Under the pieces are notes generated by a model. It made no database searches. It was not told the DNA's origin and was given only the letters and a program-made list of their open reading frames with translations. This document shows, piece after piece, positions 55,916 to 58,349 of a DNA stretch of 64,000 bases. The position numbers and the translations under genes were made by a program. Location of the stretch: assembly GCF_003097515.1 (NCBI RefSeq), contig NZ_CP029188.1, positions 5,934,531 through 5,998,530 on the forward strand, written 5' to 3'. Each line of letters begins with the position of its first letter. Positions within the stretch are counted from its first letter, which is position 1. This stretch comes from Streptomyces tirandamycinicus (lineage in GTDB: Bacteria > Actinomycetota > Actinomycetes > Streptomycetales > Streptomycetaceae).

Positions 55916-56247
55916 ACCGCGGCGCACGCGGCCCCAGCCGTCGCGGCGGCGCGGGCCCCGCGGCGCCGGAGGGTGGCGGGCCCCTGGGTGCGCGGTGACG
56001 CGGCCGACGGCACGGCCGCGGCTCAGCGGCCGAGTGCATGACGCCCTCTGCCCGGCGGGGAGCGACGGGCGGACGGACGGGCCGTTCGCACGTCGAGGTG
56101 GTTTCCGCTCCCTCCCGGTGCGGCATGTCCGACAGTGCGCCGGTCGCGCACCCTGGCGATTCCCCGCGCACCGGTACACCGTGGTGGCCTGCGGCCCCGG
56201 CTCACCCGCCGGGGCCCGCCCTCCGCTGCCCCGCGAACGGAGAAGAC

Positions 56248-57018
56248 GTGACACCCTTCGTGCTCCCGCACACGCTCCTCGGCGACGGCCCGCACCGGGT
56301 CGTGGCCGTCCACGGCTGGCTCGCCGACCGCGACGCCTTCGCCACCGTGCGCCCCGACCTCGACCTGGAGTCGTTCACCTACGCGTTCGCCGATCTGCGC
56401 GGCTACGGCGAGGCCATGGGCACACCGGGCAGCCACACCACCGGCGAGGGCGCCGCCGACGTCCTCTCCCTCGCGGGCCGGCTCTGCTGGGACCGCTTCT
56501 CGCTGGTCGGGCACTCCATGGGGGGAGCCGTGGCACAGCGCGCCGCCGCCCTCGCACCGGACCGGGTACGGCGGATCGTCGGCATCTCCCCGGTCCCGGC
56601 GAACGGGCTGCCGATGCCACCGGAACAGTGGGCCCTCTTCGCCGACGCCGCCGAGCACCCCGAGAACCGCCGTGTCATCGTCGACCTCAGCACCGGCTCG
56701 GTACGGCCCGGCGCCTGGCTGGACCGCATGGTCCGCAGATCCCTGGAGCGCAGCGACCCCAAGGCGTTCCGCGCCTGGCTGGACTCATGGGCCGGCGAGG
56801 ACTTCCACACCGAGGTCGACGGATCGGCCGTCCCCGCGCTCGCCGTCACCGGTGCGCTCGACCCGGCCATCACCGCCCGGCTGCTGCGGGACACCTGGAT
56901 GCGCTCGTACCCGAACGGCGAACTCGCCGAACTGGCCCACGCCGGCCACTACGCCATGGACGAGACCCCGCTCCAGCTCATCCGCATCGTCGAGGACTTC
57001 CTCCGGGCGGACGGATGA
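56248..57018 (+). CDS. Alpha/beta hydrolase
   Basis: A 256-residue hydrolase. HGW oxyanion turn in VVAVHGWLADRDAF, DLRGYGEAM, nucleophile elbow SLVGHSMGGAVAQRAAA (Ser in GHSMGG), and catalytic His in LAHAGHYAMDETP, with Asp in TGALDPAIT. Esterase, thioesterase or lactonase are all possible. The GTG at 56248 with GGAG five to six bases upstream is preferred over a much earlier in-frame ATG whose extension looks non-coding. The P450 gene begins within its stop (ATGA), so the pair probably works on the same compound. Confidence 0.88.
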   Translation: MTPFVLPHTLLGDGPHRVVAVHGWLADRDAFATVRPDLDLESFTYAFADLRGYGEAMGTPGSHTTGEGAADVLSLAGRLCWDRFSLVGHSMGGAVAQRAAALAPDRVRRIVGISPVPANGLPMPPEQWALFADAAEHPENRRVIVDLSTGSVRPGAWLDRMVRRSLERSDPKAFRAWLDSWAGEDFHTEVDGSAVPALAVTGALDPAITARLLRDTWMRSYPNGELAELAHAGHYAMDETPLQLIRIVEDFLRADG

Positions 57019-58349
57019 GCCCGGGGCCCGTCCCCGGCGGCCCCGGGGCCCCCGGCGTTCCCGGCGTCCCCGATGTATTCGACCCGCGCCGGTACGCGGC
57101 CGGACTGCCGCACGCCGCCTTCCGGGAGCTGCGCGACCGACACCCCGTCTCCTGGCAGGCCGAGTACGAGGTGCTGGGCTGGCCCCCGGGGCCCGGATTC
57201 TGGGCCGTGACCCGGCACGCCGACGTCGTGCACGTCCTCAGGGACCACGGAACGTACTCGTCCTGGGCCGGTGCCACCCAGATCCGCGACCCCGACCCGG
57301 CCGATCTGCCCTTCATCCGCCGCATGATGCTCAACCAGGACCCGGGTCCCCGCGGCCCGGCAGGACCCGGGCAGGGGGACGGCGCGGCGGGGGAGGGCCG
57401 CTCCGGCCACGGCCGGCTCCGGCGCCTCGTCAGCCGGGCCTTCACCCCCGGCCGCGTCGCCCGGTTCACCGGCGCCGCCCGCGCCCGCGCCCGGGAACTG
57501 CTCGGCGCCGCCCGCGCGACCGGGCCCGTCGTCGACCTCGTCACCGCCGTCACCGACGACTACGCACTCCTCAACCTCGCCGACCTGCTGGGCGTCCCGG
57601 AGAGCGACCGGGGGCTGCTGCTGACGTGGACGGAGCGCGTCATCGGCTACCAGGACCCGGACGAGCCACCCGTGCTCGACGCGGACGGCAGACCCGTCAA
57701 CCCGCGCTCGCCCGCGATGCTCAAGGAGATGTTCGACTACGCCCGCGAGCTGGCGGCGTACAAGAGGCGCGCCCCCGGCGACGACGTCATGACCGCGCTC
57801 GCCGGCAGCGGACTCCACGACGGCGAACTGGAGATGTTCTTCTTCCTCCTCACCGTCGCCGGGAACGACACCGTCCGCAGTGCCGCGCCCGGCGGCCTCC
57901 TCGCCCTCGCCGTCCACCCCGACCAGCAGCGGCGCCTGCGCTCCGGCGAGGCCGCACCGGACACCGCGGTCGAGGAACTGCTGCGCTGGCACCCGCCCGT
58001 GCTCTCGTTCCGCCGCACGGCGACCCGCGACACGACCCTCGCCGGCCAGGACGTCCGCGCCGGGGACAAGGTCGTCGTCTTCCACGCCTCGGCCAACTAC
58101 GACGACCGCGTCTTCGACGCCCCCCACCGCCTGGACCTGACGCGCGCCCCCAACCCCCATGTCTCGTTCGGCGAGGGCCCGCACGTGTGCCTCGGCGCGC
58201 ACTTCGCCCGCCTTCAGCTCCGGGTGCTCCACGAGGAGGCGCGTGCCCTGCTGCCGCCCTTCACCCTCGCCGCGGAGCCCCGGCGGCTGGTGTCCAACTT
58301 CGTCAACGGTGTGAAGTCGCTGCCGCTGGACCTGTCGAGAGGGGGGTGA
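57015..58349 (+). CDS. Cytochrome P450 (CYP124/CYP125-like) with Gly-rich insertion
   Basis: A 444-residue P450. I-helix FLLTVAGNDTVRSAA, ExxR in VEELLRWHP (helix K), and heme loop FGEGPHVCLGAHFARL with Cys392. YSSWAGATQIRDPDPADLPF and RRTATRDTTLAGQDVRAGDK resemble actinobacterial CYP124/125/142 enzymes that hydroxylate lipids or sterol side chains; the substrate here is unknown. Oddly, the C-helix motif, normally MLxxDPPxHxRLR, is split: DP at 109-110, about 20 Gly/Pro/Ala residues (111-130), then GHGRLRRLVSRAFTPGRV. The conserved His and Arg remain. ATG overlaps the hydrolase stop. Confidence 0.9.
   Translation: MSPGPVPGGPGAPGVPGVPDVFDPRRYAAGLPHAAFRELRDRHPVSWQAEYEVLGWPPGPGFWAVTRHADVVHVLRDHGTYSSWAGATQIRDPDPADLPFIRRMMLNQDPGPRGPAGPGQGDGAAGEGRSGHGRLRRLVSRAFTPGRVARFTGAARARARELLGAARATGPVVDLVTAVTDDYALLNLADLLGVPESDRGLLLTWTERVIGYQDPDEPPVLDADGRPVNPRSPAMLKEMFDYARELAAYKRRAPGDDVMTALAGSGLHDGELEMFFFLLTVAGNDTVRSAAPGGLLALAVHPDQQRRLRSGEAAPDTAVEELLRWHPPVLSFRRTATRDTTLAGQDVRAGDKVVVFHASANYDDRVFDAPHRLDLTRAPNPHVSFGEGPHVCLGAHFARLQLRVLHEEARALLPPFTLAAEPRRLVSNFVNGVKSLPLDLSRGG

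Follow-up and report, generated by a model that had tools for sequence, protein, structure and literature searches.

In the 64,000-nucleotide stretch of DNA analysed here (the window), taken from the 7.29 Mb, single-contig chromosome of Streptomyces tirandamycinicus, an ORF for an alpha/beta hydrolase (56038..57018, + strand) is followed by a gene for a cytochrome P450 of 444 amino acids (57015..58349, + strand), the TGA of the first overlapping the ATG of the second in an ATGA. The best NCBIfam matches of the hydrolase are PcaD-type and lie under the curated cut-offs; a homologue is found within 1.2 kb upstream of the P450 in 83 of 152 orthologous loci. The heme cysteine motif, the helix C His/Arg and the P450 fold are all present in the P450 product, which is CYP125-like by similarity only: its best match in sequence and predicted fold, from the CYP125 family (steroid C26-monooxygenase), is CYP125MRCA, a reconstructed ancestor, at 45% identity and TM 0.79/0.89. 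The 19 extra residues in the C-helix motif of the window protein have no counterpart in CYP125MRCA. A 9-bp unit (CGTCCCCGG), repeated imperfectly about five times at 57029-57072, encodes the Gly/Pro/Val-rich N-terminus of the P450, and residues 1-11 have pLDDT values <50.

The altered motif had been placed by an earlier note on this DNA at 57333-57425, correctly corresponding to residues 107-137, with G131 and the following HGRLRR at 57405-57425. The codons of D109-P110, GAC CCG, occupy 57339..57344 (+ strand) and begin with GACC, one of the two tetranucleotides that most commonly directly precede the dispersed element described below. They are followed by a variable loop of 63 nt (57345..57407, + strand; residues 111-131), which replaces two canonical residues, and then by HGRLRR (57408..57425, + strand), identified as an intact helix C start by the alignment and the predicted structure. 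With 21 residues between DP and the H of DPPxHxRLR, and two in most orthologues, the net gain is 57 nt, or 19 codons. The earlier description of residues inserted in frame, with the flanking motifs and the heme cysteine intact, stands: the ORF at 57015-58349 is open, and in a 60-sequence alignment D109, H132, R134, L135, R136 and the heme C392 are invariant, R137 nearly so.

A structure predicted with AlphaFold2 from a 60-row alignment (mean pLDDT 85.8, pTM 0.87) has a P450 fold, in which residues 118-126 have pLDDT <50 and helix C runs from 132 to 142. When the gene is compared with those of loci L218 and L009, dN/dS outside the loop is 0.32, and two pairs of non-carriers give 0.23 and 0.26; within the loop, pN/pS among the window, L218 and L009 is 0.70 to 0.97 over 22 codons. 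The P450 gene is under purifying selection; most likely the enzyme works and the loop is an addition that it tolerates, disordered according to the model. Of the two outcomes envisaged in the note, a protein that still folds with a new loop near the heme thus agrees with prediction and substitution rates, and an impaired P450 is not borne out.

Orthologues place the insertion in a wider setting. In a first sample of 43, window included, 36 have the canonical length and seven are lengthened, with all extra residues at one point of the alignment. A larger sample, consisting of the first one, 80 named contigs and further genomes, gave 161 loci and 146 distinct proteins, namely 15 carriers with +4 to +52 residues, 128 canonical sequences and three that the search pattern did not parse (L171, canonical on reading, and L174 and L175, both truncated). 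The insert is thus not unique, a question for which the note had proposed an orthologue alignment. A search by pattern through 392 genomes of the genus returned 17 lengthened loops, or 19 with the window and genome G253, which lie outside the pattern, and this targeted search brought the total to 23 carriers among 154 distinct orthologues, a ratio that is not a frequency since the last eight sequences were found because they bear inserts. The extra lengths across carriers are 4, 9, 10, 11, 13, 19 and 52 residues. A sequencing artefact is ruled out by 19-residue inserts at the same place in G034 and G289, the protein stretch of G034 being the same as that of S. wuyuanensis L058, and the carriers in the two larger sets, 15 among 146 and 23 among 154, rule out a mutation unique to the strain.

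In three of the carriers the insert contains an intact copy of a short palindromic dispersed repeat, whose core is CTTCCCCAAGCTCTC-RRCTYCGYTCGAGCAGGGG-AGACCCCA. Single copies in L130 (S. aureoverticillatus) and L131 (S. chattanoogensis) add 13 codons each, and in L172 (G253) four tandem units, starting at L172:1153, lengthen the loop by 52 residues with the frame open; duplication is therefore able to add length secondarily. The three inserts have a 34-nt core, CTTCCCCAAGCTCTCAACTCCGTTCGAGCAGGGG, identical at 34 of 34 positions, and their flanking third codon positions are 65-66% identical; the core of L213 matches those three at 26 of 34, with flanking third positions 57-68% identical across the four. 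A profile built from 29 copies outside P450 genes and run against 196 kb, one strand, matched the loops of L172 (E-value 4.5e-15, four hits), L130 (6.7e-15), L131 (1.5e-14) and L213 (1.4e-6), with weaker values for L062 (E 0.03) and L050 (E 6.2); the best match outside a loop had E 4.9. An element origin of the inserts in the intact and near-intact carriers is, on this evidence, very probable.

Carriers are scattered on the P450 tree, the minimum number of changes being 11 in a tree of 144 rows, 14 in one of 151 and 12 in one of 58. A single clade for all 23 carriers is rejected (p-AU 3e-48; 58 of 154 rows), as is one for L130, L131, L172 and L213 (p-AU 6e-12; same 58 of 154 rows). The scatter is compatible alike with repeated insertion, with conversion between copies and with repeated exact loss, the latter two also as partners of insertion.

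Allowing up to two mismatches, the core was present in 7 of the 12 genomes tested first and in 35 of 61 from the genus. A sample drawn across the class had it in 6 of the 13 genomes belonging to its own genus and in none of the 135 others, so that in the samples searched the element is confined to Streptomyces; a reversed control pattern gave zero matches in all genome searches. Flanking sequences differ from copy to copy. GACC or CACC precedes 37 of 96 copies, contexts that are not independent because some represent one gene in several genomes, versus 1.8% of random positions, and the DP of DPPxH is encoded by GAC-CC. The features looked for in a MITE are terminal inverted repeats and a target duplication; here the palindrome is internal and imperfect, its CTTCCCC and CCCCA ends are not inverted copies of each other, and the consensus of the 29 copies has no GTAG or CGTC tag at either end. 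Five of the six reading frames are open in the CTTCCC form and all six in the CTCCCC form; therefore a host gene stays readable. Retention of the palindrome as an RNA structure found no support in the folding of 18 inserts (z from -1.27 to 2.10; -0.63 for the intact L131 copy), and no Rfam family was found in the five loci scanned. The element shows no link to the Y1 transposase (PF01797), which occurs in 9 of 35 element-bearing versus 7 of 26 element-free genomes; among the six genomes with at least eight copies it is absent from four (G026, G006, G009, G002) and present in two (G063, G040). The window has no second copy at up to three mismatches, and its own genome has only two at up to two mismatches (L181, G000:C1:2498064-2498097, and L188, G000:C1:4960126-4960159).

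Copies also lie inside other genes. In 24 of 96 contexts, which are no random draw since 40 regions were hand-picked from the list of the 61-genome survey, the reading frame continues through the copy with coding-type GC3 on both sides, under a strict test that fails to detect, among others, hemC, cydD and the P450 copy. Copies occur in either orientation and in several frames. This coding test was passed by 18 of 45 CTTCCC-type copies versus 6 of 49 of the CTCCCC type, and failed by both copies listed above for the window's own genome. Host genes identified by family models include NuoM, NuoL, SdhB, HemC, CydD, KdpA, PepN, an aldose epimerase and a CDO-type dioxygenase; a further host, a SufS-like aminotransferase, matches under the curated cut-off of its model. 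For sdhB, where the copy is preceded by GGTG, the site is empty in all seven other genomes, and empty sites were also found, among four genomes searched, for nuoM, nuoL, hemC, the SufS-like aminotransferase, the CDO-type dioxygenase and the epimerase. In all seven genes, the junction is shorter by 39 bp than the filled one in every empty row, and the nuoL rows of G000 and G030 likewise give 39 (BLAST). Next to the element, the bases of filled sites are not those of empty ones, and no clear target duplication was seen. The hemC of G004 (L308) has a separate 12-bp insertion shortly past the empty site. Worn copies are shorter: 27 bp in the nuoM of the window's own genome (L300) and of G030, and 30 bp in the aminotransferase of G030; at the nuoM site of L300, other Streptomyces are empty or have the full-length element.

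Direct tests do not identify the window insert as the element. Local alignment gives p 0.26, with the reverse complement scoring higher (27 vs 23), the 29-copy profile leaves it unmatched, and it folds like its shuffles (z 0.01). It retains TCCCC near its start and GCGGGGGAGG near its end; the latter begins one base before 57388 and is common to the window, L009, L218, L208 and L050. The best remaining 3' arm, chosen post hoc, is CGGGGGAGGGCCGC at 57388..57401 (+ strand), corresponding to CAGGGGAGACCCCA in the intact element, and gives p 0.31 when taken alone. A test for two arms in order, conceived after the alignment had been seen and therefore post hoc, gives p 0.0185 when the window insert is compared with dinucleotide shuffles and 0.003 when it is compared with gene segments. 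The 9-residue inserts of L050 and L208 have both arms in order (two-arm p 0.0005 and 0.0115), and the sister inserts of L009 and L218 fail against shuffles (p 0.18 and 0.11). Thirteen of the 20 P450 inserts long enough for the test, a set that leaves out three of +4 residues, pass at 0.05, the failures being L096, L218, L135, L009, L023, L220 and L217; the inserts of L023, L217, L220 and the +4 group may have other origins.

Phylogeny adds to this. A seven-row group (L218, L001, L009, L208, L219, L050 and L220), with support of 95 in a tree of 151 of the 154 rows and of 92 in another tree, consists entirely of carriers, and the next node out (support 89) has 11 rows, nine of them carriers; one of these, L062, shows the 5' arm clearly. 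The shorter, element-like inserts of the nearest relatives and the worn nuoM copy in the same genome lead us to read the loop at 57345..57407 as most likely a worn and lengthened copy of the element. Because the insert is not recognised directly, the test is post hoc and seven of 20 inserts fail it, we rate an element origin of the window's own insert as probable and no higher.

The whole explanation, which we consider likely, is that the dispersed element entered the DP codons and then wore and lengthened into the present loop. In a gene the element adds 39 bp, or 13 codons, net; it would move by what we infer to be a transposition-like process, and the DP codons (GAC-CCx) before helix C would offer it a typical site following GACC/CACC. 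Its occupation in several lineages may be due to a loop that tolerates extra residues. In the window lineage, arrival would predate the split of the seven related genomes. The window insert, if it descends from such a copy, would since have been eroded by substitutions as well as deletions within it and would have gained about 30 bp, giving a 19-residue, Gly/Pro-rich, probably disordered loop, the enzyme presumably remaining functional after the insertion.

Local slippage or duplication of GC-rich DNA could instead have formed the loop, with no dispersed element involved, and slippage expansion was the origin that the earlier note had suggested. Base composition favours such a process: GC content is 84-86% in 90-base windows from 57330 to 57539, insert included, and 65-78% across most of the P450 gene, so that the GC-rich stretch extends beyond the insert. 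In addition, GGACCCGGG can be read twice, at the start of the window insert and within it, and L172 has undergone tandem amplification at the same site. However, TRF finds no tandem repeat in the window insert at a score of at least 30, the doubled GGACCCGGG is missing from the sister inserts of L009 and L218, the shorter inserts of close relatives are element-like, and relatives have intact dispersed copies at the same nucleotide, which together make slippage an unlikely source. It is also improbable that the start of helix C is merely tolerant, the element having acted in other lineages only and the window clade having received an unrelated, random in-frame insertion that then drifted. The several inserts unlike the element (L023, L217, L220 and the +4 group), the failure to recognise the window insert on its own and the loop pN/pS of 0.70-0.97 in the window trio are all compatible with that history, but the related inserts of L050 and L208 keep both arms in order, and the group of seven is made up of carriers throughout, with L062, at the next node, keeping the 5' arm. 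That the loop is adaptive, for example in substrate gating or redox-partner contact, would fit its position just ahead of helix C, near the heme, and its retention in seven related genomes, yet it is highly improbable given a variable sequence and length, predicted disorder, absence from most orthologues and a pN/pS in the insert of the window trio above the dN/dS of about 0.32 elsewhere.

For an element that enters coding sequence, the Rickettsia palindromic elements (RPEs) are the best analogy. In PMC3767692 and PMC10969869, RPEs are described as dispersed palindromes of about 100-150 bp in Rickettsia and Wolbachia, lying in frame in unrelated protein genes, in exposed parts of the proteins and at the same positions in several species. 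The Streptomyces element likewise lies within unrelated ORFs with the frame kept, as seen in the 39-bp steps of seven genes and the 24 of 96 contexts, but its net length is 39 bp, the samples searched yielded it from Streptomyces alone, GACC/CACC often stands before it, and relatives have sites that lack it. REPs, tagged with GTAG/CGTC, are, according to PMC3733652, palindromes of 20-40 bp, some of them inside ORFs; two Xanthomonas species have them in recB at much the same position. The Streptomyces element is similarly a small palindromic repeat found inside ORFs, but it has no GTAG or CGTC end tag and no association with Y1 (RAYT-type) transposases. Streptomyces is unmentioned in the main text of PMC3733652; excerpts of PMC4681348 mention REP for E. 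coli, and the one mention of Streptomyces in those of PMC1525189 concerns IS117. Searches of the open-licence literature gave no Streptomyces report of such an element among the papers listed, and those for the core DNA strings and the encoded peptides gave either nothing or papers with unrelated titles; this is not proof of its absence from print. Size, host, favoured preceding bases, the missing tag and the missing link to a Y1 transposase set the element apart from RPEs and REPs.

Taken together, the observations lead us to favour, with some reserve, a recently active, genus-specific and frame-preserving mobile palindrome of 39 bp net that would prefer (G/C)ACC, rewrite loops of working enzymes, those of the respiratory chain included, and have struck the same P450 DP codons repeatedly, the window loop being its fossil and its mover something other than the resident Y1 transposase. 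Streptomyces are free-living hosts amenable to genetics; relatives offer empty as well as filled alleles, and NuoM, NuoL, SdhB, HemC and a P450 are available as targets, so that movement of the element and the effect of a new peptide on an enzyme become directly testable. Some caution follows for annotation: where a Streptomyces protein contains a DPSPSSQLRSSRGDP-like or odd Gly/Pro stretch, this may be left over from the element and not an evolved domain. In G157:C1, a single-contig chromosome with 17 copies, the prevailing strand changes at about 4.1 Mb: six of the seven copies to the left of this point are on the - strand and nine of the ten to its right are on the + strand, a distribution resembling alignment with replication.
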